DNA from: Paenibacillus sp. UNC451MF
GTDB taxonomy: Bacteria; Bacillota; Bacilli; Paenibacillales; NBRC-103111
Length of the DNA: 64,000 nucleotides
Assembly (NCBI RefSeq): GCF_000686845.1
Contig: NZ_JMLS01000001.1
Coordinates: 124,001-188,000 of the forward strand
Direction of reading: 5' to 3'
Made by a program: the position numbers and the translations under genes. A model generated the notes under the pieces. It saw only the letters and a list, made by a program, of their open reading frames with translations, did no database searches and was not told where the DNA came from. Shown here in pieces: positions 20,609 to 44,637 of this stretch (positions within the stretch are counted from its first letter, which is position 1; every line of letters begins with the position of its first letter).

Positions 20609-21562
20609 GTGGTACAAATCGAATCCAATGTTAAAGCAGCGGCAGTTAAACCAGTCGGTATTGAGTTAAGAAGAATGATCGGAAAAAATATTTGGCTATA
20701 CATAATGCTGCTGCCCGGACTGATCTACTTTTTACTGTTTAAGTATCTACCCATGTGGGATTTATTGATCGCTTTTCAGGACTATCAACCAGCACTTGGT
20801 TTTTGGGGCAGCCGATGGGTTGGGATGGAGCATTTCTCCCGATTTTTCTCGGATCCGATCTTCTGGGATTTATTTCGCAACACAGCCATTCTAGCTGTTT
20901 ACAACATCGTGCTGTTCTTCCCACTGCCAATCATTGTAGCTCTGATGTTAAATGAGCTTCGCATTCAATGGTTTAAGCGCACAGTGCAAACGTTCATTTA
21001 TATCCCGCACTTTTTTTCGATTGTTGTGGTTGTCGGGATATCGTATGTGATGTTTACGACGGAAGGCGGCATTGTCAACGAAGCGGTTGCCGGGATTGGG
21101 GCAGAGAAGATCAATTTCCTTACGGCACCGGAATGGTTTAGACCGATGGTAACGCTGCAGGTGATCTGGAAAGAGACGGGGTACGGTACGATCATCTTTT
21201 TGGCAGCGCTTGCAGGAGTAGATCCTTCCTTGTACGAAGCGTCCAAAATTGACGGTGCCAGCCGTTGGCACCAGCTTTGGTATATCACGATGCCAGCTAT
21301 TAAAAGCACGATTGTCATTCTTTTAATTCTGAGGCTTGGGCATTTTCTGGACACCGGCTTTGAACAAATGCTGCTTATGATCAATGCCTTAAATCGTGAG
21401 GTAGGTGAGGTGTTCGATACTTATGTTTACACCAACGGGATAACACAGGGGCAATTCAGTTATTCAACTACGGTAGGGCTGTTTAAATCGGTAGTCGGGC
21501 TGATCTTGGTCGTTGCGGCGAACTATATCGCTCGCAAAGCGGGGGAGGAAGGCGTGTATTAA
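20609..21562 (+). CDS. Lpl-type sugar ABC transporter permease 1 (LplB-like)
   Basis: One of two membrane subunits of a carbohydrate importer of the CUT1 LplABC/YtcP-YteP type. The 317-residue protein has six hydrophobic helices and the EAA loop that contacts the ATPase (EASKIDGASRWHQLWYITMP, about residues 211-230). The LplB-like start (LRRMIGKNIWLYIMLLPGLI) and the loop with DYQPALGFWGSRWVG are characteristic. The GTG at 20609 is used, with AAGGA and GGGG upstream. It heads the run permease, permease, lipoprotein, PL22; no ATPase is encoded nearby. Confidence 0.88.
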   Translation: MVQIESNVKAAAVKPVGIELRRMIGKNIWLYIMLLPGLIYFLLFKYLPMWDLLIAFQDYQPALGFWGSRWVGMEHFSRFFSDPIFWDLFRNTAILAVYNIVLFFPLPIIVALMLNELRIQWFKRTVQTFIYIPHFFSIVVVVGISYVMFTTEGGIVNEAVAGIGAEKINFLTAPEWFRPMVTLQVIWKETGYGTIIFLAALAGVDPSLYEASKIDGASRWHQLWYITMPAIKSTIVILLILRLGHFLDTGFEQMLLMINALNREVGEVFDTYVYTNGITQGQFSYSTTVGLFKSVVGLILVVAANYIARKAGEEGVY

Positions 21563-24061: not shown

Positions 24062-24205
24062 GCGGGCGGGCTGCTGCTGGAACAAAATGGTGCTTTTCCG
24101 TACACAGAGCAGCATGGACGAGGGAGAGCGGCGTGAAATAGGCCGCTGCTCCTCTTTAGATCACGACGAGGCTTAGACATAAAATGAATGGCGGGAGTGT
24201 TAATT

Positions 24206-25285
24206 TTGAATAGAGGACGTAGTTATTCATTTGAAAGACGATTTTTTCGAGATGCAGGAACAGGCGCAGAGACCGTACAGCTCACCTCATTCCCCTGCGT
24301 CAATATTAAACTGTATTTTCATGTCAATGCCTTTACTCCGGATTCTCAAACGCTTGTTTTTCAGACGTGTGCTCTTTCGAGCCGAGACTCGAAAGTAGAT
24401 ATTTTTAAGGTTCAAATCGATGGAACAGGTCTAACTCAGCTAACGGATGATGCTGAAGCCGGCAGTCCTGTCGTATCGCCTGACGGTCGGTGGTTGTATT
24501 ACGTTTGCCACGGTGAGCTTCGCCAAGTATCCATGAGCGATTATAGTGTGGATACAGTAGGTTATATCGACGGTATTCAGCCTTCAACCGGACTGAGCTC
24601 CAACACGGCTGGCACTACAATTAACGCGAGCATGAGCAGCGACGGGCGTGTGTACTTTACGGATGCAACGCTTAAGAACGGGAGAAGAGCTATCCTCAGA
24701 TATACGACGGATGGAAAAGCAGCGGCGATTATTTATGAATCCGATTCTATTACCCATACCCAGTGCGAGCCAGCTGAAGCCAAAATTGTAGCATTTCAGC
24801 ATGGACCTGATGATAAGAATAGAAATATATGGCTTATCAACGAAGATGGTACGAATCCAAGGCCTTTGGACTTACCTTTTGGCAATGGGCATTGGATGTG
24901 GCTGGGTAATACCGGCAAAATTATGAGTAATCTTGAAAAACAGTGTCACGGAATTGCCGTAATGGGGGAAGGGGATGAGGCACCGGAGCTCATTGCAACA
25001 GGGGAGCATTTCTGGCACGCTGCCAGCAGTCGTGATGGCCAATGGATGGTATCCGACACAAGCTGGCCCGACAACGGGATTCAGCTGATTCATGTAGGCA
25101 CCAAGAAATATGCGACATTATGCTACCCGGAAAGCTCTAACTCCCATCCGCAGTGGTCTCACCCGCATCCTTCGTTCAGTCCTGACGGCAGCTATGTCGT
25201 CTACAATTCGGATAGAAGCGGAACGCCTCATATTTACTTGGTCAAAATTCCCGCTCACCTGAAGGAAGAGCTGCAGACGGTGTAA
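24206..25285 (+). CDS. Oligogalacturonide lyase, PL22 (copy 1)
   Basis: PL22 enzymes are cytoplasmic seven-bladed beta-propellers that cleave short, often unsaturated oligogalacturonides into 5-keto-4-deoxyuronate. The 359-residue protein has propeller repeats and the family landmarks FHVNAFTPDSQTLVF, THTQCEP, FGNGHWMWLG and HPQWSHPHPSFSPDG; the last holds the Gln and His residues that bind Mn2+ in characterised PL22 enzymes. A TTG at 24206 is chosen because GGGAG lies eight bases upstream and the protein then aligns with copy 2 (M-x-RG-x-x-Y start); the ATG at 24188 would precede that ribosome site. Confidence 0.87.
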   Translation: MNRGRSYSFERRFFRDAGTGAETVQLTSFPCVNIKLYFHVNAFTPDSQTLVFQTCALSSRDSKVDIFKVQIDGTGLTQLTDDAEAGSPVVSPDGRWLYYVCHGELRQVSMSDYSVDTVGYIDGIQPSTGLSSNTAGTTINASMSSDGRVYFTDATLKNGRRAILRYTTDGKAAAIIYESDSITHTQCEPAEAKIVAFQHGPDDKNRNIWLINEDGTNPRPLDLPFGNGHWMWLGNTGKIMSNLEKQCHGIAVMGEGDEAPELIATGEHFWHAASSRDGQWMVSDTSWPDNGIQLIHVGTKKYATLCYPESSNSHPQWSHPHPSFSPDGSYVVYNSDRSGTPHIYLVKIPAHLKEELQTV

Positions 25286-30893: not shown

Positions 30894-33800
30894 ATGCTGT
30901 TAGCATATGAGAAACTGGCAAGAAGACTGCGCGAATTCGATAAATTTCGGTATAACCACGAGAGAGCCATTCCGAAATACAGCTTCTGGATTGATGAGCA
31001 AGCGGAAGTCGCTGCCCTTCCACCGGAAGATGCCGAATGGCGCGAAATATCGATAGGAGAACGATGGGGAGGCTGGGACGTCACGGCTTGGCTCAAAACG
31101 GAAGTTGTTCTTCCTGCGGAGTGGGAGGGTAGAGCTGTGCTCGGCTTGTTTGATTTTGGCAAAACGGGCGATGGGCATAACTGGGGGTTTGAGTCGCTGC
31201 TCTATCTTAATGGCTCACCATTTCAAGGCGTCGGCACGAATCATAAGGAAGTTTTTTTCCCAAAGGAACTAATTGGTCAGAAGGTCGAGCTGTTGTTTAA
31301 AGTATGGAGCGGACTAAGCGGCGGACGGGGGCGAGTCGAGCAATGGCATCAGCTGCAAAAATCGTCTTTAGCCGTATTAGAAACTGAGGCTGACGATCTG
31401 TATTTTACAGGTACTGCTGCACTACAAACGGTGAAACTGCTCCACGAAAGCAGATGGGAACGACAAGCTATTCTCAAGGCTCTGGACCGCGCTTTCTTAT
31501 TAATCCAATACCGATACCCGGGAAGCGCTGCTTTCTATGAGAGTGTGAGCGAAGCGAACCACAGGCTGAAGGATGAATTGGAGCAAATTCCGAAGCTGCA
31601 CGAAGTAACCGTCCGCTGCATTGGCCATACCCATATCGACGTCGCTTGGCTGTGGCGCCTGAAGCATACACGAGAGAAGGCGGCCCGTTCGTTCTCCACC
31701 GTACTGCGTTTAATGGAGCAGTTTCCCGAGTATACGTTTTTGCAAACGCAGCCCCAACTGTACGATGATCTCGAACGGGATTATCCGGAACTTTTCGCCC
31801 GCATCAAAGAGCGCGTGAAGGAAGGTCGCTGGGAAGCAGCTGGAGCGATGTGGCTGGAATCGGACTGCAATATACCGTCAGGGGAATCCCTTGTGCGTCA
31901 GCTGATGTACGGCATGCGTTACTTTGAGCAGACGTTCGGCGTACAGTGCGAATACTTATGGCTGCCGGACGTGTTCGGCTACAGCTGGGCACTGCCGCAA
32001 ATATTGAAAAAAAGCGGATTGCGTTATTTCATGACAACGAAAATCAGCTGGAACGTCTACAATCGATTCCCGCACGATACGTTTTATTGGCGTGGCATCG
32101 ATGGGAGCGAGATCTTAACGCACTATATTACAACACCGGACCCTGGTATGAAAGAAGATGCTTTCCCTAAGTCTTATACCTACAATGGTCAAGTACTGCC
32201 GGAGACTGTGAACGGCATTTGGAACAATTATCGTGATAAAGAGGTTAATGACGAGCTGCTGCTCTCCTTCGGATGGGGAGATGGCGGTGGCGGACCGACG
32301 AGGACGATGCTGGAAATGCGCAGAAGGCTCGAGCAAATGCCGGGACTTCCGAAGGTGACGACGGGACGAGCGGATAGCTTTTTCCGTCAGTTGGAGCAAA
32401 GAGTGAAGGAGACGGACCGTTACGTTCATCGCTGGGACGGCGAATTGTATTTGGAGCTGCACCGAGGAACCTATACCTCCCAAGCGTATGTGAAAAAGAT
32501 GAATCGGCACATGGAAAACAAGCTGCGCGATGCGGAAATCGTCTCCACTTTTATAGGAACGGCTGCAGGGTTTGGAGCTTATCCCAAAAAACAGCTAGAC
32601 GAGAGCTGGAAAATCGTGCTGCGTAATCAGTTTCATGATATACTACCAGGCTCCTCTATTCCTGAGGTGTATGAGGATTGTCATGTAGAGTACGCAGAAG
32701 CGGAGCGGCTGGCGGATCAATCGCTCCAAGGGAGCTTGGAGAGCCTGGCTGCGGGCATTCAAAGTCGCAATGACCCGGGCTGGTTCATCGTCAACACACT
32801 GCCATGGGAGCGGGATGAGCTGATTGAGCTGCCTTGGGAGGAAAGCTATGCAGGCAAACAGTTCCTGGATAGCGCGGGCAATAAGCTGTTGGCAGTACGT
32901 GTAGAGGGAGGGGCACAGGGAGATACGCTGCGGATAAGGGTCAAGTCGATTCCCTCCATGGGATACACCACCTTTCATGTGGCGGAAAGATCAAGTGAGG
33001 AGAACCATGAGAATCAAAGCTCTACGAACGTACCGTCGGAGAAGCCAATGACCATAGATCTTGGCAGTCGGAGTGCGGCGACACCATTTTATGAAATCGA
33101 GTGGAATGCCGCTGGACAGCTGAGCAGGCTGTACGACAAACGAAGCCAGCGTGAATTGATCGCTGATGGAGAGGTTGCCAATCACTTCGACGTGCACGAG
33201 GATAAGCCTACGGCTCATGATAACTGGGAGATCGATATTTTTTACTATGAAAAGCAGTATGCGATCACAGATTTGCAATCGATGGAGGTTATTGAACATA
33301 ACTCGCTGCAATCGGTCATTCGTTGTGTATGGCATTATGGAGAAACGGTGATAAAGCAAGATATGACGTTATATGCGGATAATCCAAGAATCGATTTCTC
33401 CACATGGGTCGATTGGCAGGAGAGAGAGCAGCTGCTGAAGGTTGCTTTCCCGGTCCGCGTTCGCGCAGCGGCGGCCACGCATGAAATCCAGTTTGGCAAT
33501 GTGCAGCGTCCTACCCATTGGAACACGAGCTGGGACTTCGCCCGATTTGAAACGTGCGCGCACCGTTGGATCGACTTGTCCGAGCGGGGATGCGGCATCA
33601 GCTTATTGAATGATTGCAAGTACGGTCATGATGTGCGGGATCACGTGATGCGGCTAACGCTGATCAAATCGTCCAATATGCCAGATCCAACTTGCGACCT
33701 CGGCGAGCATACGTTTACTTATTCACTGCTGCCACATGAAGGAGATTGGTTCGGCGCAGGGACGGTACAGCAAGCACATCGTTTGAACATCCCCGTTACC

Positions 33801-34127
33801 GTAATGGCATTGCCTAATCAGGGGAAAAGCGGAAAGGAGGCACTTCCAGCTGAGCTCAGCTTTATTAGCTGCAGCGGTGATCATGTTGTTATCGATACTA
33901 TTAAACGAGCGGAGGACTCGGACGACTGGATCGTTCGCTGTTACGAGTATGCGGGAAAACGGGGCGAGGTCGGCTTTACAACGCATTTTACGCTCGGGCA
34001 GGTAGAGGAAGTCAATCTGCTTGAACGAGAAGGACAAAGAGTGGAACATCAAGACCAACATTTCCGAGCTTTTTTCACACCATACGAATTGAAAACATTT
34101 CGAATCCGGGTAGCCAAGAAGGAATAG
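30894..34127 (+). CDS. Alpha-mannosidase, GH38
   Basis: GH38 enzymes release alpha-linked mannose with retention, using zinc. The 1077-residue protein has an N-terminal beta domain, then the catalytic domain with GHTHIDVAWLWR (zinc ligands His245 and Asp249 region) and WLPDVFGYSWALPQ, whose Asp359 is the expected nucleophile; DFAR- and QFHDILPGS-type motifs follow, and large C-terminal beta-sandwich domains complete the chain. There is no signal peptide, so it acts in the cytoplasm on imported oligosaccharides. GGAGGTG precedes the ATG. It follows the AraC gene by 82 bases, and a terminator ends the unit. Confidence 0.92.
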   Translation: MLLAYEKLARRLREFDKFRYNHERAIPKYSFWIDEQAEVAALPPEDAEWREISIGERWGGWDVTAWLKTEVVLPAEWEGRAVLGLFDFGKTGDGHNWGFESLLYLNGSPFQGVGTNHKEVFFPKELIGQKVELLFKVWSGLSGGRGRVEQWHQLQKSSLAVLETEADDLYFTGTAALQTVKLLHESRWERQAILKALDRAFLLIQYRYPGSAAFYESVSEANHRLKDELEQIPKLHEVTVRCIGHTHIDVAWLWRLKHTREKAARSFSTVLRLMEQFPEYTFLQTQPQLYDDLERDYPELFARIKERVKEGRWEAAGAMWLESDCNIPSGESLVRQLMYGMRYFEQTFGVQCEYLWLPDVFGYSWALPQILKKSGLRYFMTTKISWNVYNRFPHDTFYWRGIDGSEILTHYITTPDPGMKEDAFPKSYTYNGQVLPETVNGIWNNYRDKEVNDELLLSFGWGDGGGGPTRTMLEMRRRLEQMPGLPKVTTGRADSFFRQLEQRVKETDRYVHRWDGELYLELHRGTYTSQAYVKKMNRHMENKLRDAEIVSTFIGTAAGFGAYPKKQLDESWKIVLRNQFHDILPGSSIPEVYEDCHVEYAEAERLADQSLQGSLESLAAGIQSRNDPGWFIVNTLPWERDELIELPWEESYAGKQFLDSAGNKLLAVRVEGGAQGDTLRIRVKSIPSMGYTTFHVAERSSEENHENQSSTNVPSEKPMTIDLGSRSAATPFYEIEWNAAGQLSRLYDKRSQRELIADGEVANHFDVHEDKPTAHDNWEIDIFYYEKQYAITDLQSMEVIEHNSLQSVIRCVWHYGETVIKQDMTLYADNPRIDFSTWVDWQEREQLLKVAFPVRVRAAAATHEIQFGNVQRPTHWNTSWDFARFETCAHRWIDLSERGCGISLLNDCKYGHDVRDHVMRLTLIKSSNMPDPTCDLGEHTFTYSLLPHEGDWFGAGTVQQAHRLNIPVTVMALPNQGKSGKEALPAELSFISCSGDHVVIDTIKRAEDSDDWIVRCYEYAGKRGEVGFTTHFTLGQVEEVNLLEREGQRVEHQDQHFRAFFTPYELKTFRIRVAKKE

Positions 34128-34466: not shown

Positions 34467-37400
34467 ATGAAAGTAAAGCGACTACTTAGCATCATGTTGA
34501 CTGCTGCGATGGCTTTGAATTTATTGCAGCTTGGCTCCGTTTCATTAATTAAAACAACATTCGCTGCAGACGGGGATTTTATTACAACGAATATCGCAAA
34601 TGACGATTACGAAGCGCTCTCAGGGCGAGCAGGATTGGAAGCGGAAGGCTATACTATCAGCCCTAGTCCGGGGACGGCTACCAATGATGTCGGCATTATC
34701 GGGGCAGGAGATATAGCCAACGCTGCGATTAACAATGACAAGACCGGGAAGCTGCTGCATATGCTGGATTCGGGTACAGGAACGACCAAATTCATTCGGG
34801 TGCTGCCTTCCAAGGCTACGGGAATAGTGACGGTGGAGTTCGATTGGCGCTCAGATAAGAACGGGGCGGATGCAACCAACTACCGCGTTATGAGGGTTGA
34901 GAATAGTAGCGGACAAGCTTTGGTGGAGCTTCGTCTAAGCGATTCCGGAGTTAATATATCCCAATACGTAAGCGGTTCCAATAAAAAGGTTGTCCCTAAT
35001 TATGAAAAGGATAGATGGTATCATTTCAAAATTGAAATCGATACAAATGCGCAAAAAGCGGAATCATTCGTGCGCACGAGCCCAACAGGCACTTACACCT
35101 CGGCAGGGCAATGGGGCTTCACGGAAGCAGCAGCGCCTGCAGAAGTAGCGCAGCTTCAGGCTTATACGGCAGGTACGCAAACCTCCAGCATGTACTATGA
35201 TAATTTGCAGGTATACACCAAGATTTCTCGGCCTTCCGCGCCGGCTGGAGTGGCTGCAGCTGCGGGTAACGGACAAGTAGACTTGTCGTGGAACGCAATC
35301 AGCGGCATGAGCTATACGGTCAAACGTTCTCTGACGAGTGGAGGCTCTTATACGGAAATCGCCACTGGGTTGAATGGTGCGGCTTACCAAGACAAGGGAG
35401 TCACTAATGGTGTGACCTATTATTATGTCGTCACCGCCTCAATGAACGGGCTTGTTAGTGCGGATTCGAACGAAGCTGCGGCTACTCCGCAAGCTCCACA
35501 AGCGCCTGCTCAGCCTAGCGGGGTAACGGCAGCTCCTGAGAACGGACAGGTAAGCTTGTCCTGGAATGCTGTTACCGGAGCTGAGAGCTATATAGTCAAA
35601 TATGGTACGGTAAGCGGTGGACCTTATACGGATATTGCAGGTGTTACAGCTAACGCCTATACGATAAAAGGCTTGACCAACAATAAGGCCTATTTCTTTG
35701 TCGTTGCTGCCGTGAATGAAGTAGGCCAGAGCGGCAATTCGGTTGAAGTGACGGCTGTACCGGTCCAGTCTCCTCCGCCTTCAGCTCCTGCTGGGCTAAA
35801 GGCTACAGCTGGACAAGGTCAAGTGACATTGTTCTGGAATGCCGTTAACGGGGCCGCGAGCTACAACGTGAAACGGAGTACGGATGGATCAAGTTTCACC
35901 ACCATTGCTTCGGGAGTTACAACGAACAGCTACGTAAATACAGGCCTTACCAACAACACGCAATACTATTACGCTGTAACGGCTGTGAACAGCAATGGAG
36001 AGAGCGTTCCATCCGCTTCAGTTACTGCAACGCCAGTCGAGTCGCCTCCGGTTGAGCAGTATAATCTCACAGGCTTTTCGAGCGGCAATACGGGTGGCGG
36101 CAGCATTCCGGAGACGGACGCCAAATATATTAAAGTGTACAACGCCTTGGATTTCGCTAAAGCGATCAATCGCAAGAACGGCTATAAGGTCGTCGAGATT
36201 ATGAACGATTTGAACTTGGGCTGGAATGAGATCCCGGCTGAAGCCAAGACGGCGGCAGGTTCCTTGTTCGTGGCTAATATTGCACCGAAAACCCATCCGG
36301 TTCTACTGGAGACAGGCGTTAGTAAGATCTACATTGATACCGTCAACAATATGACGATCTTTTCGGCTAACGGGGCCAAAATCAAGCATGCCGGCTTCAC
36401 GGTCAAGCACAGCTCCAATCTTATTTTCCGCAATTTGGAGTTTGATGAACTGTGGGAGTGGGACGAGCTGTCCAAGGGCGATTATGATAAAAATGATTGG
36501 GACTTCATGACAGTAGAGGACGATTCCAAGGTATGGATCGACCATTGTACCTTTAATAAATCGTATGATGGTGGAATTGATGTCAAGCAGGGTTCATCCG
36601 GCGTGACGATTTCATGGTCACTGTTCAAGGGCGATGACAGAAGCGCGAATAGCTGGGTCACACAGCAAATTAACTTCCTGGAACAAAATCCGTCAAGCTA
36701 CACGATGTATAAATTTCTGCGGGATCAAGGCCTGAGCACCGATGATATTATCGCTGTATCAGCAGGCCAAAAGAAACAACACTTAGTAGGGGCGACAGAA
36801 TTTGATTCCAAGAACCCGAACCTCCAGGTTACGTTGCATCATAACTATTACAAGGATATGCAGGATCGGATGCCTCGTCTAAGAGGAGGAAATGTACACG
36901 CTTACAACATAGTGATGGATAGCGCTGGGAACTGGGAAGCCAAAAAGCGGATTTCAGACGCGCAAGCGGCTGCTATTTCCTCCAAAGGCTATCATTTCGG
37001 TATAACGAGCAACGGTGCTATTTCTACTGAGGGCGGTGCAGTCCTCGTCGAGAATTCTCACATCATCGACGTGTTCTATCCGATGAGGAATAACCAGGTC
37101 GATCCAGTGAAGTCACAATACACCGGCAAAATTTTAGCTAAAAATACGATCTACTCCATGGATGGCAAGGTGTTTCAAGGGGACAGCAATACCCCGGACA
37201 GCCCGATGACTCCGGTTCCAGCCCCTCCGTTGGAATTTTCGTGGAGCGGAATGACGGATCTGCCATACAGCTACACAGCGGACGATCCTTCCACTCTGAT
37301 CTCTCGTCTGACAGGCAATGAGGGAGCAGGTGCAGGTCAACTGCTGTGGTCTAAAGAGAACTGGATGCTTACCTCCGGCTATTCATCAGGTGGCGGAAGC

Positions 37401-40268
37401 GTACAGATTCCTGCAGCGGTTGGAGGTGTTAAAGCAACGACGACGAAGAACGGACAAATTACGCTGCAATGGAATTCGGTTAGTGGCGCGTCCAGCTATA
37501 GTGTTAAGCGCAGCACGGTAGATGGAAGTGGATATCAGACCATAGCTGCCACAGCGGGGCTTAATTATACAGATACCACTGTAACATTGGGAACGACTTA
37601 CTATTACGTAATTTCAGCTTCTAATGCAGCTGGAGAAGGTGTGAACTCACCTCAAGTAAGCGCAGTTCCCGTAATCGTAGTTGATCTACCTTCTGCACCT
37701 GGTTCTATCAGCGCAAGTGCAGGCGATTCCAAGGTTCAACTTGCCTGGGTGGCGGTATCGGGTGCAGATTCCTACAATGTTAAGCGAAGCACGAGCGTAA
37801 GCGGCCCTTTCACCGGGATTGCTACGAATGTTACAGCTACGACACACACAGATAACAACGTTACGAACGGAACTACTTATTACTATGTCGTAACAGCCAG
37901 CAATACAGCCGGTGAGAGCGTGAGCTCCACTGTAGTAAGCGCCACCCCGGCGCAAGTAACGGTGCCGAATCCGGTTGAAGGAGATATCATCGTATCCCCG
38001 GATGGCCAGGATAGCAATGCGGGCACGGTAGAAAGTCCCATGTCACTGACTGCCGCTTTGACGAAAATCGGTGCAGGCAAAACCGTCTACTTACGCGGAG
38101 GCATTTACAGCTATTCCGCTCCGGTTACTATCGAGCGTAATAACAGCGGTACTGCGGATGCCAGGAAAAAGCTTGTTGCCTACGGCTCGGAGAAGCCGGT
38201 TATGGATTTCTCGGCAGAAGCATTCGATTCGACCATGCGGGGCTTGCAAATATTCGGAAGCTATTGGTTTGTGTATGGCATCGAAGTGAAGGGTGCCGGA
38301 GATAACGGGATCTTTATCGGCGGCAATTATAACCGTATCGAGAATGTGGAGACCCATCACAATAAAGATACCGGTTTGCAAATTAGCCGTTACAGCTCCA
38401 CTGTCGGCAGAGAAGAGTGGCCGAGCTACAACGAGATCATCAATGTGTATTCCCATGATAACTTTGATCCCGATAACGGAGAGGATGCGGACGGCTTTGC
38501 CGCTAAGCTGACGATCGGTCCGGGCAACGTATTCGATGGCTGCATAGCCGCTTACAATACCGACGACGGTTGGGATCTTTACACGAAGACGGACACGGGA
38601 GCGACGTATCCCGTCATTATCCGGAACAGCATCTCTCATCATAACGGTCAAACCTCAGAAGGCAGTACGACGACAGACAGCGATGGGAATGGATTCAAGC
38701 TTGGCGGTGAGAAAATCAAAGTCGATCACATCGTGGAAAATAGCATCGCTTACCAGAACAAAAAGCACGGATTCACGTTTAACAGCAATCCGGGCACCAT
38801 CCATTTAACCAATAATACATCCTGGGCTAATGGCGAATCGAACTTTGCTTTTGATTCAGGAACGCATGTGTTTACGAATAACTTGTCTTATCAAGGCACA
38901 GCCAGCGACAAAACGTCTGGAACGGATGTGGACAGCTCTAACGTATGGTGGAAGAACAAGAAAAGCACCAATGCCAAAGGATTGCTTGCGAGTAATGAGG
39001 ATTTCGTTAGTCTGACCCCAACGGTCACACGCAATGCGGATGGCTCTCCAAACGTGGGCAGCTTTCTTAAACTAGCGGCCAACAGCGATATGAAAGGCGC
39101 TGGAACGCCTAGCGGTACGGATATTGGTGCTAAAGGCAATACGCCTGCACCTCCTCAAGTGCCAGCTGCTCCAACCGGTTTGACGGCTGCTGCAGGAGAC
39201 AAGCAGATTGCTTTGACTTGGAACCCGGTAAGCGGTGCGGCGAGCTACTCATTGAAGCGAAGCTTGTCTAGCGAAGGAAGCTACACGACAATTGCAAGTC
39301 AATTGACTGGAACGTCTTATATGGATCAGGACTTGATAAATGGCGTCGCCTATTATTACGTCATTACGGCTAATAATGCCGCAGGTGAAAGCAGCGCTTC
39401 GAATCAAGCGAGTGCCACGCCGAGCTCTTCGCCATCGACTGTTCCTACAGTGAAGCTGAACGGAATCCAGCAGGTTGAGTACGGGAAGCCGTTGACCCTT
39501 CAATATGAGCTGAGTGGTGTGAACGTTTCTAATGCGATTTATGCGCAGGACTTAACGTTCCAATATGATGACAGCGTTCTTGAGTTTGTGTCGGCGAAGC
39601 CTTCCAAGGAGAACTTGTCCATCGTAAGAGTGAAGCAGGATGTACCGGGTGAAGTGCGAATCATCGCAGTTAGTATGGGGCAGGCCGGAGCCGTTAACTC
39701 AGACGGTCCCGTATTGCAGCTGATTTGGCAGGCCAAAGCGTTAGGTCAGCCTGCTTCAACAGCTGTATCCACCAAGCTAGTCCAGCTTGCAAACAGCAGC
39801 GGCCAGATTGTACAGCCAAACAGCGCTTCTATCCAGATTCATGTAGGTGGAGTGAATTCGAATGAATTGCAGAAAGCGATCAACAACGCTAAAGCCTTGC
39901 ATGATTCGGCAGTAGAAGGCATGCATGCGGGATATTACCCGGCAGGCTCTAAAGCTATCTTGCAGTCTGCGATCGACTCAGCTAATGCGATTCTGAGCAA
40001 TTCGGCTGCGACGCAGCAGATGCTGGATAGCGCAGCTGCTGAACTGAACAAGGCGATAGAGGCATTCGAAGCGAAGAAATATGCTCCAGTTGACGGAGAT
40101 CTCAATGATGACTTGATCGTTAATATTGGCGATTTGGCGATTATTGCGGGGAAATATGGAATGAAATCCGACAGCCAGGAATGGAATCAATATGAGCACT
40201 TGGATTTCAATCATGACGGAACTATTGATATTACGGATCTCGTTCATGTAGCGAACTTGATTGAATAG
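34467..40268 (+). CDS. Secreted PL1-PL9 pectate lyase with FN3, cohesin-like, FIVAR and dockerin domains
   Basis: A 1933-residue exported enzyme for pectin or polygalacturonate. A signal peptide (1-34, ending TTFAA) leads. Next come an N-terminal beta-sandwich (to about 250), three FN3 domains (254-525) and a PL1 pectate lyase (about 530-970) with WIDHCTF, GVTISWSLFKG, LHHNYYKDMQDRMPRLRGG (the RMPRLR holds the catalytic Arg region). Two FN3 domains (975-1163) lead to a PL9-like right-handed beta-helix (about 1172-1560, starting IIVSPDGQDSNAGT). The tail is a sixth FN3 (1563-1653), a cohesin-like domain (about 1660-1795), a FIVAR-like helical module (1795-1868) and a type-I dockerin (1872-1933) with calcium loops DLNDDLIVNIGD and DFNHDGTIDITD. 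The next two genes encode a surface cohesin and another dockerin protein. Domain limits are approximate. Confidence 0.9.
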   Translation: MKVKRLLSIMLTAAMALNLLQLGSVSLIKTTFAADGDFITTNIANDDYEALSGRAGLEAEGYTISPSPGTATNDVGIIGAGDIANAAINNDKTGKLLHMLDSGTGTTKFIRVLPSKATGIVTVEFDWRSDKNGADATNYRVMRVENSSGQALVELRLSDSGVNISQYVSGSNKKVVPNYEKDRWYHFKIEIDTNAQKAESFVRTSPTGTYTSAGQWGFTEAAAPAEVAQLQAYTAGTQTSSMYYDNLQVYTKISRPSAPAGVAAAAGNGQVDLSWNAISGMSYTVKRSLTSGGSYTEIATGLNGAAYQDKGVTNGVTYYYVVTASMNGLVSADSNEAAATPQAPQAPAQPSGVTAAPENGQVSLSWNAVTGAESYIVKYGTVSGGPYTDIAGVTANAYTIKGLTNNKAYFFVVAAVNEVGQSGNSVEVTAVPVQSPPPSAPAGLKATAGQGQVTLFWNAVNGAASYNVKRSTDGSSFTTIASGVTTNSYVNTGLTNNTQYYYAVTAVNSNGESVPSASVTATPVESPPVEQYNLTGFSSGNTGGGSIPETDAKYIKVYNALDFAKAINRKNGYKVVEIMNDLNLGWNEIPAEAKTAAGSLFVANIAPKTHPVLLETGVSKIYIDTVNNMTIFSANGAKIKHAGFTVKHSSNLIFRNLEFDELWEWDELSKGDYDKNDWDFMTVEDDSKVWIDHCTFNKSYDGGIDVKQGSSGVTISWSLFKGDDRSANSWVTQQINFLEQNPSSYTMYKFLRDQGLSTDDIIAVSAGQKKQHLVGATEFDSKNPNLQVTLHHNYYKDMQDRMPRLRGGNVHAYNIVMDSAGNWEAKKRISDAQAAAISSKGYHFGITSNGAISTEGGAVLVENSHIIDVFYPMRNNQVDPVKSQYTGKILAKNTIYSMDGKVFQGDSNTPDSPMTPVPAPPLEFSWSGMTDLPYSYTADDPSTLISRLTGNEGAGAGQLLWSKENWMLTSGYSSGGGSVQIPAAVGGVKATTTKNGQITLQWNSVSGASSYSVKRSTVDGSGYQTIAATAGLNYTDTTVTLGTTYYYVISASNAAGEGVNSPQVSAVPVIVVDLPSAPGSISASAGDSKVQLAWVAVSGADSYNVKRSTSVSGPFTGIATNVTATTHTDNNVTNGTTYYYVVTASNTAGESVSSTVVSATPAQVTVPNPVEGDIIVSPDGQDSNAGTVESPMSLTAALTKIGAGKTVYLRGGIYSYSAPVTIERNNSGTADARKKLVAYGSEKPVMDFSAEAFDSTMRGLQIFGSYWFVYGIEVKGAGDNGIFIGGNYNRIENVETHHNKDTGLQISRYSSTVGREEWPSYNEIINVYSHDNFDPDNGEDADGFAAKLTIGPGNVFDGCIAAYNTDDGWDLYTKTDTGATYPVIIRNSISHHNGQTSEGSTTTDSDGNGFKLGGEKIKVDHIVENSIAYQNKKHGFTFNSNPGTIHLTNNTSWANGESNFAFDSGTHVFTNNLSYQGTASDKTSGTDVDSSNVWWKNKKSTNAKGLLASNEDFVSLTPTVTRNADGSPNVGSFLKLAANSDMKGAGTPSGTDIGAKGNTPAPPQVPAAPTGLTAAAGDKQIALTWNPVSGAASYSLKRSLSSEGSYTTIASQLTGTSYMDQDLINGVAYYYVITANNAAGESSASNQASATPSSSPSTVPTVKLNGIQQVEYGKPLTLQYELSGVNVSNAIYAQDLTFQYDDSVLEFVSAKPSKENLSIVRVKQDVPGEVRIIAVSMGQAGAVNSDGPVLQLIWQAKALGQPASTAVSTKLVQLANSSGQIVQPNSASIQIHVGGVNSNELQKAINNAKALHDSAVEGMHAGYYPAGSKAILQSAIDSANAILSNSAATQQMLDSAAAELNKAIEAFEAKKYAPVDGDLNDDLIVNIGDLAIIAGKYGMKSDSQEWNQYEHLDFNHDGTIDITDLVHVANLIE

Positions 40269-40374
40269 CAGCAGGACTTGAAGCGGGAGAGGCGTGAGGT
40301 CAGAGCCTTTCAAAGAGGAAGGTATCAAGCAAACGCTTTTCTCCCGATTTTCTAAGATAGAAAGGATGGACTCG

Positions 40375-42195
40375 GTGAACAGACTTCTACGTTGTTGGAT
40401 CTTCTTGCTCATGCTGGTGTTGGTGTGGCCGGTCCTGCCGGAAGAGATCCGTGCGGGTACGGCTTCAGATTTTTCATTGGAAGCAGGCTCGAGTACGAGT
40501 GAACTAAATGGGGATATAACCCTAACTTTAAAAGGCAGAAGTATGGTCGATTTGTATGGTTACGAAGCCGTAATTGAATTTGACGAATCTAAGCTGCAGT
40601 TTAAAGAGATTGAGAACACAATGCCTGGCAGCGGATTTTCAATGGGGCCGATTATTAAGAGCAGTAGCTTAACCTTTGCTTATACAAAGGTAGGCAAAGG
40701 GGTTGGGGGAGAAAGCGGCATTGTAAATCTTAGCCGTATAACGTTCAAGGCAGCAGCTCCCGGCACTGCTTCGATAAAGCTGGTGAGTGTGAAAGCGGTC
40801 TCTTCACAAGAGATTGAGAACAAATGGACCGGTGCCAACTCGGTAGCCGTTGTCATTGGCAGTGACGGGAGCAATCCATCGAATCCAGGCACTGGCGGCA
40901 GCGGTAGACGCGGTGGAGGGAGTGCGGCAGTCAGTCAGCCTCAAGTGCAGAGCAGCAGCGACGGAGTCCGCGTTCTTGCTAACAATACAACACAGCGGAT
41001 AAATGCAGACGGGAGGTCAGTAGCTGTCGTTACTCTAACGGCGGATACTATTGCCAATGCGATAGAGGCGCTCAAGGCTAATCCTGCGGCTATGAACAAA
41101 ATAATTATTGAAGCTAGCAGCCAACAAGATGTAGTTCAGGTAGACCTTCCTGCTCTTGCACTAATTGATCTCATACGTCTATTTAGTAATGCCTCTCTAT
41201 CCATCCATTACAATGAAGCTGTATATGATTTGCCATTACTGGTATTGGACCTGAAGAAATGGGCGGATTCTCTCCAGGCGGAGTTGAAGGATGTAAAGAT
41301 CAGTATCGTTATTGAAAAAGTAGGCGGGGCAACAGCACAACAATTGACGGCTAGCGCTCGTGAAAACGGCTTTAGGCTGTTAACTGAAGGGTTCGATTTT
41401 ACCATTATGGCTGAGAGTGGCGGAAGAACGATAACCGCCAATGAGTTCGGCAGTACGTATGTTTCACGAAGTATTGAAGTTGCATCCGTATTAGATAGCG
41501 GAAAATCAACAGGCGTACTGTTTGATCCAGCTACAGGTGTTATGAAGTTTGTTCCTACGACGTTCAAAACCTCTGGAGAAAAAACCACAGCGACAATGAG
41601 AAGGCCTGGTAACAGCATATACGCTCTAGTTGAGCACTCCAAAACATTTGCCGATATGAGCGGGCATTGGGCTAGACAGGATATTGAATTGCTGGCCTCC
41701 AAACTCATAGTTTCCGGTCGGACGGATAGCGATTTCGTGCCGGAAGAAACCATTACGCGAGCTGAATTCGCTGCGCTGCTCGTTCGGGGGCTTGGTTTGA
41801 CCGAGACGGAGTTCACTTCATTCCACGATGTGTCCACCAAGGATTGGTTTGCGGGAGCGGTAGGAGCAGCAATCAAAGCGGGACTTGCGGATGGGATATC
41901 GGACGACAAATTTGCCCCTTATGAGAACATCACTCGAGAACAAATGGCAACCATGATGAGTCGTGCCATGAAAGCAGCAGGTAAGCTCCCAACGGCTGAT
42001 CTCAAGTCACTTGAAGCATTCGAAGACCGCATTTCGATAAGTACATGGGCGCGGGAATCTGCGGCTCAATCCATTGCAGCAGGCATTATGAAAGGCAAGT
42101 CGTCCTCTGCCTTCGATCCAGGTGCATCAGCGACACGTGCAGAGGCTGTGGTCGTACTAAAACGAATGCTCCAATATGAACAATTTATAAATTAA
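40375..42195 (+). CDS. Cohesin protein with SLH cell-wall anchor
   Basis: A 606-residue exported protein that looks like an anchoring scaffold. After a signal peptide (NRLLRCWIFLLMLVLVWPVL) there is a cohesin domain (about 29-162; SGELNGDITLTLKG-like start, YEAVIEFDESKLQFKEIE, FAYTKVGKGVG). A Gly-rich linker (about 165-190) and a central region of about 220 residues that was not recognised follow. Three SLH repeats (about 424-606; FADMSGHWARQDIELLASK, FAPYENITREQMATMMSRAM, FDPGASATRAEAVVVLKRML) bind secondary cell-wall polymer. The GTG at 40375 is chosen since AGAAAGG is 10 bases upstream; longer in-frame starts lack a ribosome site. The genes on both sides encode dockerins. Confidence 0.88.
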   Translation: MNRLLRCWIFLLMLVLVWPVLPEEIRAGTASDFSLEAGSSTSELNGDITLTLKGRSMVDLYGYEAVIEFDESKLQFKEIENTMPGSGFSMGPIIKSSSLTFAYTKVGKGVGGESGIVNLSRITFKAAAPGTASIKLVSVKAVSSQEIENKWTGANSVAVVIGSDGSNPSNPGTGGSGRRGGGSAAVSQPQVQSSSDGVRVLANNTTQRINADGRSVAVVTLTADTIANAIEALKANPAAMNKIIIEASSQQDVVQVDLPALALIDLIRLFSNASLSIHYNEAVYDLPLLVLDLKKWADSLQAELKDVKISIVIEKVGGATAQQLTASARENGFRLLTEGFDFTIMAESGGRTITANEFGSTYVSRSIEVASVLDSGKSTGVLFDPATGVMKFVPTTFKTSGEKTTATMRRPGNSIYALVEHSKTFADMSGHWARQDIELLASKLIVSGRTDSDFVPEETITRAEFAALLVRGLGLTETEFTSFHDVSTKDWFAGAVGAAIKAGLADGISDDKFAPYENITREQMATMMSRAMKAAGKLPTADLKSLEAFEDRISISTWARESAAQSIAAGIMKGKSSSAFDPGASATRAEAVVVLKRMLQYEQFIN

Positions 42196-42273
42196 AGGAA
42201 AATGTTTGCCGCTCATTTTTAGCTGAAGTGAGCGGTGAACGGCACATTTTGCCGGCAGGGGGAATGGAATTTT

Positions 42274-43986
42274 ATGAAGGGCATTTTCAACAAGAATTTG
42301 CTGCGCCTTATGGTTGCCTTTTTGGTCATGTTGCAGCTGGGAGTTCTGGCGGCAATGCCAACGGCTTTGGCAAATACGCTGCCCGCCAGTTGGACGGCCA
42401 CTACGATGAACGGGGCAATGAGCTCCAGTTCGACTGCTTTTGTCAGTCAAGAGAGTGTGAACTACAGTCAAGGAGTCTTTGATATTGCGGCTCGCCGGGG
42501 GAAAATGCAAAGTACAGCGCAAGGCGGAGACACGGTCTATTTCGTTTATGTGCCCGTAGAAGGCGACTTTACGATGACGGCGAGAGTAGTATCGGTTGGC
42601 ATCGAGCCGGGCTCCTCAACGATGAATACGGAAAATCGTGCGATGCTGATGGTCAAGGACGGGGTTTCAAATGACTCGGACTCATTCTCCGTCATCTATA
42701 GGCCGATAGCGGTGTCACCGACCGTTACAGGCACAGTTACATCATACAAGCGCTTTGGTTCCTCATCAGGAACTGGATCCAGCGCAAGCGGTACTTTTAA
42801 TGCTCCGATCTATTTGAAGCTGGAAAAGGCGGGAAACATCTACAGAGGCTCCTATTCAGCAGATGGTATGAGTTATACTCAGTACTACACTCAGACGGAT
42901 ACTGCGAACACGTTGTCTTCCTCGTCTCTTAATGTAGGCTTGGCTGTCACGGCAGCAACGGTTCAGTTCGATAATGTTACTATCACTAAGTCTTCATCCG
43001 ATTTCCTTAATGCACCTGCAAATTTGTTGGCCCATGCGGGAGACGGATCGGTTGGACTTTCTTGGGATACGGTTACAGGAGCAACTTATTATAAAGTGAA
43101 GCGCTCAACCCAATCGGGAGGGTCATTTGCAACGGTTGCTGGCAATGTATATTCCTCTTCCTACACGGATTCGAATGTCATCAATGGTATAACGTATTAT
43201 TATGTTATCACAGCAGCTAACGATAAGCTCGAGAGCGCTCCATCCCTACAGGCAAGTGCCAAACCGGAAGCGGCTAGTCTACCTGTAAGTTCAATTTCAG
43301 TTAGTTCCGCGAGCGGAAATGAGATTACAGTTCAGAGCGGCACCTTGCAAATGCAGGCAGCTGTATTGCCGAATAATGCTACAAACCGTACAGTATCCTG
43401 GAGCGTGTATGAATCAGATGGGGTAACACTTACTGATAAAGCAGCGATCGGCAGTACTGGCTTGCTGCAAGCGGTGAAGGATGGTACTGTGAAGGTCGTT
43501 GCCAGAGCTTTGGATGGCTCTAATGTCCAAGGAAGCGCTGTGGTGACTATTTCGGGTCAGACCCCATCGATTAACAGGTCTGTTTTGCAGAGTGCTATTA
43601 CAGATGCTCAGACTGCATATAACGATTCCCTGGAAGGTACTGATGCAGGTCAGTATCCTAAGGGGGCCAAGGCGTTGCTATTATCAGCGATCAGTGCGGC
43701 ACAAGCTGTTTTGGAGGATGTACAAGCGACCCAAGAACAGATCGATCGGTTGTCTAATGATCTAATCCAAGCGCTGCAAACGTTCCACGATTCTGTCTTG
43801 TCTCCAAAAAATGGCGATGTAGATGGAAACGGAGTTATAGATATTGGAGATCTCGGTATTGTTTCAGGTGTGTACGGCTCGACAACAGGTAGCGCTGACT
43901 GGAATTCCGCAAAGCGTGCGGATATGAACCAAGATAACACTATTGATTGGCTGGATATAGATTATGTAGCCCAACGGATTCCATAA
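42274..43986 (+). CDS. Secreted non-catalytic FN3/FIVAR/dockerin protein
   Basis: The 570-residue protein has a signal peptide (KGIFNKNLLRLMVAFLVMLQ, cleavage near ALA) and a beta-sandwich module of about 210 residues (VYVPVEGDFTMTARVVSV, LMVKDGVSNDSDSFSV) resembling concanavalin-like or DUF1349-type modules. It then has one FN3 (about 250-335), an Ig-like BIG2-type domain (about 340-425), a FIVAR-like helical module and a dockerin with loops DVDGNGVIDIGD and DMNQDNTIDWLD. No catalytic domain was recognised, so it may be a sugar-binding or structural partner docking on the cohesin of the gene before it. The ATG at 42274 follows AGGGGGA. Confidence 0.85.
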   Translation: MKGIFNKNLLRLMVAFLVMLQLGVLAAMPTALANTLPASWTATTMNGAMSSSSTAFVSQESVNYSQGVFDIAARRGKMQSTAQGGDTVYFVYVPVEGDFTMTARVVSVGIEPGSSTMNTENRAMLMVKDGVSNDSDSFSVIYRPIAVSPTVTGTVTSYKRFGSSSGTGSSASGTFNAPIYLKLEKAGNIYRGSYSADGMSYTQYYTQTDTANTLSSSSLNVGLAVTAATVQFDNVTITKSSSDFLNAPANLLAHAGDGSVGLSWDTVTGATYYKVKRSTQSGGSFATVAGNVYSSSYTDSNVINGITYYYVITAANDKLESAPSLQASAKPEAASLPVSSISVSSASGNEITVQSGTLQMQAAVLPNNATNRTVSWSVYESDGVTLTDKAAIGSTGLLQAVKDGTVKVVARALDGSNVQGSAVVTISGQTPSINRSVLQSAITDAQTAYNDSLEGTDAGQYPKGAKALLLSAISAAQAVLEDVQATQEQIDRLSNDLIQALQTFHDSVLSPKNGDVDGNGVIDIGDLGIVSGVYGSTTGSADWNSAKRADMNQDNTIDWLDIDYVAQRIP

Positions 43987-43993
43987 TGGTTAG

Positions 43994-44025
43994 AAGGGAG
44001 AAGAAGCTTAATTCTTCTCCCTTTA
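43994..44025 (+). terminator. Terminator of the cohesin-dockerin operon
   Basis: A perfect 12-bp stem AAGGGAGAAGAA / TTCTTCTCCCTT with a short loop, then T-rich sequence. It overlaps the last bases of the convergent gene. Confidence 0.8.
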
Positions 44026-44637
44026 TTCCACCTTGGCTCCGTAAGACCGCAGAAAAGCAATAGCTTGTCCCGTATCCATTCGGGCCCCCTTCACATCAAA
44101 CGATTTGAAATTCACCCCATCGAGTATGGCTCCTCTTAAATCCGCGCCTTGAAGACGCACTTTGCCAAGCTGTGCCCGCGTCAGGTCAGCCTCCCGAAGA
44201 TCGCATTTCTCCAGATTGCATTCGTATAAATCCGCTTCTACAAAACGAATTCCACGCAGCGACTGCTTGCTCAGATTACTATGACGAAGGCTCGTATAGG
44301 ACCAATCGCCACGCAACAAAGTAATACCGTCAAGGTTACATTCGGAAAAATCAGATCCCACCATTTTGCACTCCTCAAATTTGGCGACAAACAGATTAGC
44401 TCCCGTAAACCGGCAGTTAGTAAAAGCCGAACCATTGTGAACCGAAGCGTTAAGCTGAGCGCCGGTAAAATCGCAATCTGTAAATTGGCAGCCTACTGAC
44501 CACATTTCCTCTAGAAGGGTGCTTTTAAATCTGCATCGGGTAAAAGTACAGTTGCGGAGCTCACCCTCTCGCAAATCTTTATGGCTGAAGTCAATTTCCG
44601 TATATTGCTGATCTATGTATTGATACACTTCACACAC
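44023..44637 (-). CDS. Pentapeptide repeat protein
   Basis: The 204-residue protein consists largely of A(D/N)LxX-type repeats, for example CNLDGITLLRGDWSYTSLRH and KCDLREADLTRAQLGKVRLQ, which fold into a right-handed quadrilateral beta-helix. Some members (Qnr, MfpA, McbG) mimic DNA and protect gyrase from quinolones or microcins, while most are of unknown role; sequence alone does not show which applies here. It stands alone on the minus strand, convergent with the pectin operon. Confidence 0.88.
   Translation of the reverse strand: MCEVYQYIDQQYTEIDFSHKDLREGELRNCTFTRCRFKSTLLEEMWSVGCQFTDCDFTGAQLNASVHNGSAFTNCRFTGANLFVAKFEECKMVGSDFSECNLDGITLLRGDWSYTSLRHSNLSKQSLRGIRFVEADLYECNLEKCDLREADLTRAQLGKVRLQGADLRGAILDGVNFKSFDVKGARMDTGQAIAFLRSYGAKVE

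Follow-up and report, generated by a model that had tools for sequence, protein, structure and literature searches.

Three consecutive plus-strand genes in a 64,000-nucleotide stretch of Paenibacillus sp. UNC451MF (contig NZ_JMLS01000001.1; the whole stretch is called the window below) encode a double pectate lyase with a cohesin-FIVAR-dockerin tail, a cohesin protein with SLH repeats, and a dockerin protein that has no cohesin. We consider that the three products may form a closed pectinase complex that is held at the wall and needs no scaffoldin for its assembly, with a probability of about 0.55. Such a scaffold-free chain is the best reading of the genes, although unproven, and it takes the place of the simple anchor picture given by an earlier sequence-only reading. 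The latter proposed a minimal, surface-held pectin complex, close to a picture in which one anchor serves two clients. Its likely surface anchor and its pectin theme held up, the theme being carried also by nearby PL22 and ABC-permease genes. The division into one anchor and two clients fared worse, because gene 1 has a cohesin of its own, and in our view it is neither the only nor the best reading. The features of the three genes are as follows, in window coordinates.

34467 to 40268, plus strand: gene 1, open reading frame (ORF) of 1933 amino acids
36057 to 37376, plus strand: PL1 catalytic module of gene 1, residues 531-970
37983 to 39146, plus strand: PL9 catalytic module of gene 1, residues 1173-1560
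39447 to 39833, plus strand: cohesin of gene 1, enzyme class
39861 to 40067, plus strand: FIVAR spacer of gene 1
40095 to 40262, plus strand: dockerin of gene 1, two calcium-loop repeats
40294 to 42195, plus strand: gene 2 ORF, open from GTG 40294
40375 to 42195, plus strand: gene 2 from the start chosen by eye, one cohesin and three SLH repeats
40468 to 40851, plus strand: cohesin of gene 2, anchor class
41644 to 42147, plus strand: three SLH repeats of gene 2 (41644-41772, 41818-41949, 42019-42147)
42235 to 43986, plus strand: gene 3 ORF
42274 to 43986, plus strand: gene 3 from the preferred start; unassigned N-terminal domain, fn3, Big_2, FIVAR and dockerin
42361 to 43011, plus strand: N-terminal domain of gene 3
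43813 to 43980, plus strand: dockerin of gene 3

All three ORFs are open and lie where the sequence-only reading had placed them. The starts, signal peptides and ribosome sites of the three genes were judged by eye, and on these grounds GTG 40375 was preferred for gene 2 and ATG 42274 for gene 3.

The gene 1 product is probably secreted, to judge from its signal-like N-terminus. This is followed by an unassigned region, fn3 repeats, the PL1 module, more fn3 repeats, the PL9 module, and the cohesin-FIVAR-dockerin tail. The PL1 module matched PF00544 and PDB entry 5gt5 (E 7e-185). The PL9 module matched PDB entry 1ru4 (E 1.7e-46) and NF041903 at 195.6 bits, which is far below the equivalog cut-off of 1490. 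The cohesin was assigned by the PF00963 profile and by its fold. It was the top-scoring Pfam cohesin of its own genome (41.6 bits, E 7e-10 in the genome scan), and it was absent from the whole-protein Pfam search at E 0.1. The spacer scored 31.0 bits with PF07554. For the dockerin, PF00404 gave 21.3 bits in the whole-protein search, against a cut-off of 22.9, and 29.2 bits in the genome scan; a family profile built without the window rows also supported the assignment. Thus, the PL1/PL9 lyase ending in a dockerin, as first proposed, was confirmed, and its own cohesin had been overlooked.

The gene 2 product is predicted to be a secreted anchor, which we regard as probable. Its cohesin is assigned to PF00963, although the Pfam score was borderline: 20.2 bits in the whole-protein search and 23.9 bits otherwise, or 24.2 with frame neighbors, at a cut-off of 24.1. 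A profile of its relatives (A3, 61 rows including the window) gave 133 bits, and the score was still 116 bits once the window and the nearest ortholog, in genome G009, had been dropped. The family profile matched nine solved chains with E values from 3.5e-6 to 0.008, each of them bearing cohesin, scaffoldin or NagJ in its name. HHalign related the anchor-cohesin profile to the enzyme-cohesin profile with a probability of 98.6. On these three comparisons, an unrelated sandwich domain was rejected. The three SLH repeats matched PF00395 (E 9e-30), so that the profile searches assigned all of the cohesin, dockerin and SLH domains that the sequence-only reading had seen.

Gene 3 encodes a protein that is probably secreted as well, judging by its predicted signal peptide. 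Profile searches recognized neither a cohesin nor a catalytic domain in it, in agreement with its description as a second dockerin protein without a catalytic domain. Its dockerin scored 33.9 bits with PF00404 in the genome scan (cut-off 22.9) and, like that of gene 1, is a type I dockerin by profile score and by its two calcium-loop repeats, which had been noticed in both. The FIVAR stayed at 22.1 bits in the whole-protein search against a cut-off of 29.2. The N-terminal domain matched DUF1349 weakly (E 0.03), hit no PDB sequence below E 0.7, and is possibly a carbohydrate-binding sandwich. It is kept in three other genomes (G009, G004 and G012). A BLAST comparison of the N-terminal parts of the gene 1 and gene 3 products returned nothing.

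Complete dockerins in the 7.49-Mb genome numbered two, those of genes 1 and 3, by Pfam and tail-profile scans. Three cohesins were found, in gene 1, in gene 2 and, as a divergent copy, in a NEAT/SLH protein on contig 6. No ORF carried two cohesins at the thresholds used, so no scaffoldin was found in this genome at these thresholds. The contig 6 protein (L007 5354-10234) is SLH-anchored, with eight NEAT domains, two FIVAR domains and the divergent cohesin at its N-terminus; ABC-transporter and sortase-like genes, named by eye, adjoin it. It has relatives in G011 (75%) and in G004, G012, G006 and G003 (35-40%), and G003 has no Pfam dockerin. Short adjoining cohesin and dockerin pieces lie on contig 17 (142638-142836; about 4639-4837 of L008). 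They are likely to be the relic of another cohesin-dockerin gene, and a third dockerin was rejected there because only pieces remain.

In the proposed complex, SLH repeats would hold the gene 2 product in the wall, where it would present one cohesin. The gene 1 dockerin would dock on this cohesin, leaving the gene 1 cohesin facing outward. Because gene 1 carries a cohesin, its product may be both cargo and receptor, acting as an adaptor for what follows. Gene 3 lacks a cohesin and so can only end a chain; in doing so, it would bring its N-terminal domain, perhaps carbohydrate-binding, to the lyase. The order would then run from the wall to gene 2, to gene 1 (optionally several copies, head to tail), and to gene 3. 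The oligogalacturonides released might pass to the upstream transport and PL22 genes.

The unit is conserved. A survey for the three-gene order, proposed with the sequence-only reading, found the cohesin-FIVAR-dockerin enzyme, the anchor and the dockerin-only protein in this order in three more genomes of the genus (G009, G004 and G012), with a PL1 domain in the first gene each time. The anchor is 47% identical to gene 2 in both G004 and G012. In G011, the anchor comes after a PL1 protein that has a dockerin only, and the anchor frame is split in the G011 assembly. This conservation bears on whether the gene 1 cohesin and dockerin are vestigial or purely structural modules that no longer bind anything, which we regard as very improbable. 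The contig 17 pieces do point to a possible shrinkage of the system in this lineage, and the first calcium loop of gene 1 departs from the consensus at its Gly position. Nevertheless, the three frames are open and are conserved in G009 at 81, 66 and 66% identity for genes 1, 2 and 3, and the conserved helix of dockerin repeat 1 (IGDL...YG) retains its key residues in both window dockerins.

The best argument for the gene 1 cohesin as a receptor comes from three other genomes, G047, G052 and G056, as far as domain content can tell. Each has two Pfam dockerins and two Pfam cohesins; both cohesins are of the enzyme class, and no anchor-class match was found in any of the three. The first cohesin sits on a cohesin-dockerin protein (with DUF4855 in G047 and G056). 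The second is part of an SLH-anchored PL8 lyase with three such repeats (L225 9074-14528, L227 4906-10372 and L229 5619-11072), and next to this lyase lies, in all three genomes, a CBM-Big_2-dockerin protein built much like gene 3. Any partner for these dockerins within their own genomes must therefore be an enzyme-class cohesin.

This weakens a rival explanation in which both window dockerins bind only the gene 2 cohesin, one at a time, and the gene 1 cohesin serves some other partner or none. The adjacency of gene 2 and the well conserved class of its cohesin agree with it, as do 40 of the 67 sampled anchors, which have a cohesin-dockerin ORF no more than 700 bp upstream. In G047, G052 and G056, on the other hand, the enzyme class is the sole cohesin class found, and of 338 dockerin ORFs in a biased sample, 316 retain an enzyme-class cohesin. 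Both points speak for a cohesin class that functions as a dockerin receptor. The window genome holds no other complete dockerin that the gene 1 cohesin could receive. We consider this explanation unlikely, at roughly one chance in five.

The system is widespread. Pfam dockerins occurred in 84 of 147 genomes and Pfam cohesins in 101 (E 1e-3, own genome included). At E 1e-15, the cohesin-dockerin tail profile matched 69 of 104 family genomes, and the anchor-cohesin profile matched 49, all of them within the 69. Thus 49 genomes had both, 20 the tail only, none the anchor only, and 35 neither (Fisher p 1e-13, a nominal value since the genomes are related). Some weak tail matches may reflect only the cohesin part; G010, for instance, lacks a Pfam dockerin. 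Across a collection of 84,980 species, the scan located 256 places encoding a relative. The best 80 of these 256 gave 70 loci, all labelled Paenibacillus except one Cohnella and one Bacillus sp. The system, set by the sequence-only reading in a genus not classed among cellulosome producers, is no isolated case.

Domain architecture was counted in 442 complete, unique ORFs scoring above 40 bits, from all loci except L001-L068, L139-L158 and L219-L224 and after ORFs truncated at locus ends had been dropped. A cohesin and a dockerin occurred together in 316, and a dockerin only in 22, several of these being short pieces. The anchor-class cohesin came with SLH repeats in 95 of 97 cases and without them in 2; the enzyme-class cohesin was found with SLH repeats in 3 ORFs and alone in 4. 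Among 30 loci chosen by the Pfam dockerin alone, 13 of the 14 ORFs with this dockerin class (above 60 bits) also had a cohesin, a result favored by a profile that was built from paired ORFs. In 85 of the 186 non-redundant enzyme parts, which were scanned for families, the matches listed included GH101, GH95, GH43, GH2, GH3, GH20 and GH84, with many F5/8 and Big_2 domains. Pectin therefore does not appear to be the main target of the wider system.

Enzyme-class cohesins also occur directly on SLH proteins in G001, G010 and G004, so that SLH repeats and dockerins look interchangeable as attachment parts. A strict rule that this class stands only beside a dockerin was rejected, being broken by six SLH exceptions. 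In L310, L311 and L314, SLH repeats follow the enzyme-class cohesin in the usual place of the dockerin, with a FIVAR in two of the three. Duplicated dockerins or two cohesin-dockerin pairs per ORF were seen in L167 (710-4465), L210, L176 and L241.

Taken together, these observations raise the tentative possibility, which we hold somewhat less probable than not, that many family members build wall-anchored chains without a scaffoldin. Each enzyme would carry a plug and a socket, anchors with a distinct cohesin class would start the chains, and dockerin proteins without a cohesin would end them. The window genes would then be the smallest complete set of starter, link and terminator. If dockerins bind enzyme-borne cohesins, self-assembling chains would be a common route for holding polysaccharide enzymes at the wall in a large bacterial group. 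The three-protein set is small enough for full rebuilding and testing in vitro.

Several results weigh against scaffold-free assembly. The loci were mostly chosen by dockerin or tail queries, so the ORF counts overstate the pairing. No clear interface emerged from covariation between the cohesin and the dockerin columns, either by a mean-field method (251 pairs) or by pseudo-likelihood (347 pairs, Neff 234), while covariation within each of the two domains was strong. There were 31 couplings with z above 3, against 9 and 6 in two shuffled pairings; the top pairs outlined no plausible face, and the excess over the shuffles may reflect shared ancestry. We take the covariation result as neither for nor against binding. 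AlphaFold2 predicted a folded gene 1 tail (pLDDT 96), with a pTM of 0.70, which means that the module arrangement is not settled in the model. Finally, the consensus sequences of the enzyme- and anchor-class cohesins differ in the stretches expected to face the dockerin, as these lie in type I complexes. One dockerin may therefore not bind both classes.

The same tail might instead close on itself. The gene 1 dockerin would then bind the cohesin of the same molecule, or gene 1 products would pair two by two, with a regulatory role rather than a complex-building one. The two modules stand side by side in the chain, and of 251 unique pairs, 159 showed no FIVAR between cohesin and dockerin and 92 had one. 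The linkers without a FIVAR span about 8-16 residues in most examples, with two longer, and given the geometry of the binding face this is probably short for reaching it within one chain. The AlphaFold2 tail also lacked a confident overall arrangement, which is not decisive. Self-binding alone leaves unexplained why anchor cohesins occur only with tails. We judge this explanation improbable, more so than exclusive binding to gene 2 and less so than vestigial modules.

The surroundings of the three genes fit with the pectin theme. The upstream scan covered five ORFs, one without a match, and the GH38 ORF. It found the following features, to which the hairpin after gene 3 is added.

20609 to 21562: ABC-permease gene
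24188 to 25285, plus strand: oligogalacturonate lyase (PL22; PF14583, E 3e-19)
30894 to 34127: GH38 alpha-mannosidase, directly before gene 1
43996 to 44027, plus strand: terminator-like hairpin with a T-rich tail, read by eye and absent from the terminator scan list

A Gfo/Idh/MocA oxidoreductase and an AraC-type regulator are also encoded upstream, and from the upstream genes we interpret the region as a pectin-use locus. The number of promoter-like sites did not clearly exceed that in shuffles (15 against 12.5, sd 3.2), and terminator-like sites showed no excess (6 against 9.0).

A second cohesin-dockerin type was seen as well, in which a dockerin ORF with a different dockerin helix is followed by a two-cohesin ORF. 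It occurs in L014 (1-2988), on which alone Pfam was run, and similarly in L009, L011-L013, L017, L019, L020, L031, L033-L035 and L038; the two-cohesin ORF is split in L034.

Searches of open-licence literature turned up no account of the spread through the family, of two cohesin classes, or of the recurring starter-link-terminator unit and its pectate-lyase form, although absence from this literature is weak evidence. The protein type itself is already in print, for P. guangzhouensis and C. perfringens. Two other candidates for a precedent were rejected. S1 of the P. curdlanolyticus B-6 multienzyme complex has neither module in what PMC6823336 presents of it, and the same applies to the Ca. 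Reconcilbacillus cellulase complex in the account of PMC6794216 that bears on it.

Classical cellulosomes (Acetivibrio, Ruminiclostridium, Ruminococcus) share with the window dockerin-bearing carbohydrate enzymes, here gene 1, and an SLH cohesin protein as anchor, here gene 2. They differ in having a multi-cohesin scaffoldin; the three cohesins of the window genome are in three ORFs, and a cohesin is borne by the enzyme instead. Archaeoglobus fulgidus likewise has a cohesin outside a cellulosome (2xdh). There, cohesin and dockerin are on one polypeptide, and we know of no pectin enzyme or SLH anchor unit in that organism.

The nearest solved modules to the window cohesin and dockerin are those of Clostridium perfringens NagJ, NanJ and NagH, and the FIVAR-dockerin of gene 3 matched NagH 2jnk with E 2e-16. 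The likeness to C. perfringens, already proposed from the sequence, is thus borne out: the NagJ/NagH type (solved pair 2ozn) has single cohesins on catalytic proteins and a FIVAR-dockerin, and is closest to the window modules in sequence and fold. The part of PMC12997984 dealing with these modules describes enzyme-borne cohesins and one GH31 protein with both modules in C. perfringens, and one protein with both in A. muciniphila. Most C. perfringens proteins in that part carry one module or the other, which is read as pairwise contacts, and no SLH anchor cohesin is mentioned there. The window differs in having both modules on one enzyme, together with a wall anchor.

A close precedent is P. 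guangzhouensis, a Paenibacillus species for which such proteins were published in 2024. According to Minor et al. (2024, PMC11557425), it has 35 cohesin proteins, including 28 single dockerin-cohesin proteins, often with an N-terminal glycosidase, and five SLH anchoring cohesin proteins; the possible surface set is kept apart there from conventional cellulosomes. Genes 1 and 2 follow the same plan, with a carbohydrate enzyme that bears a single cohesin and a single dockerin, and a separate SLH cohesin anchor. P. guangzhouensis is presented as one unusual genome, and section 15 of that paper names no pectate lyase. In the window, by contrast, three neighboring genes make up the whole dockerin inventory, one enzyme is a double pectate lyase, and a dockerin protein without a cohesin completes the set.

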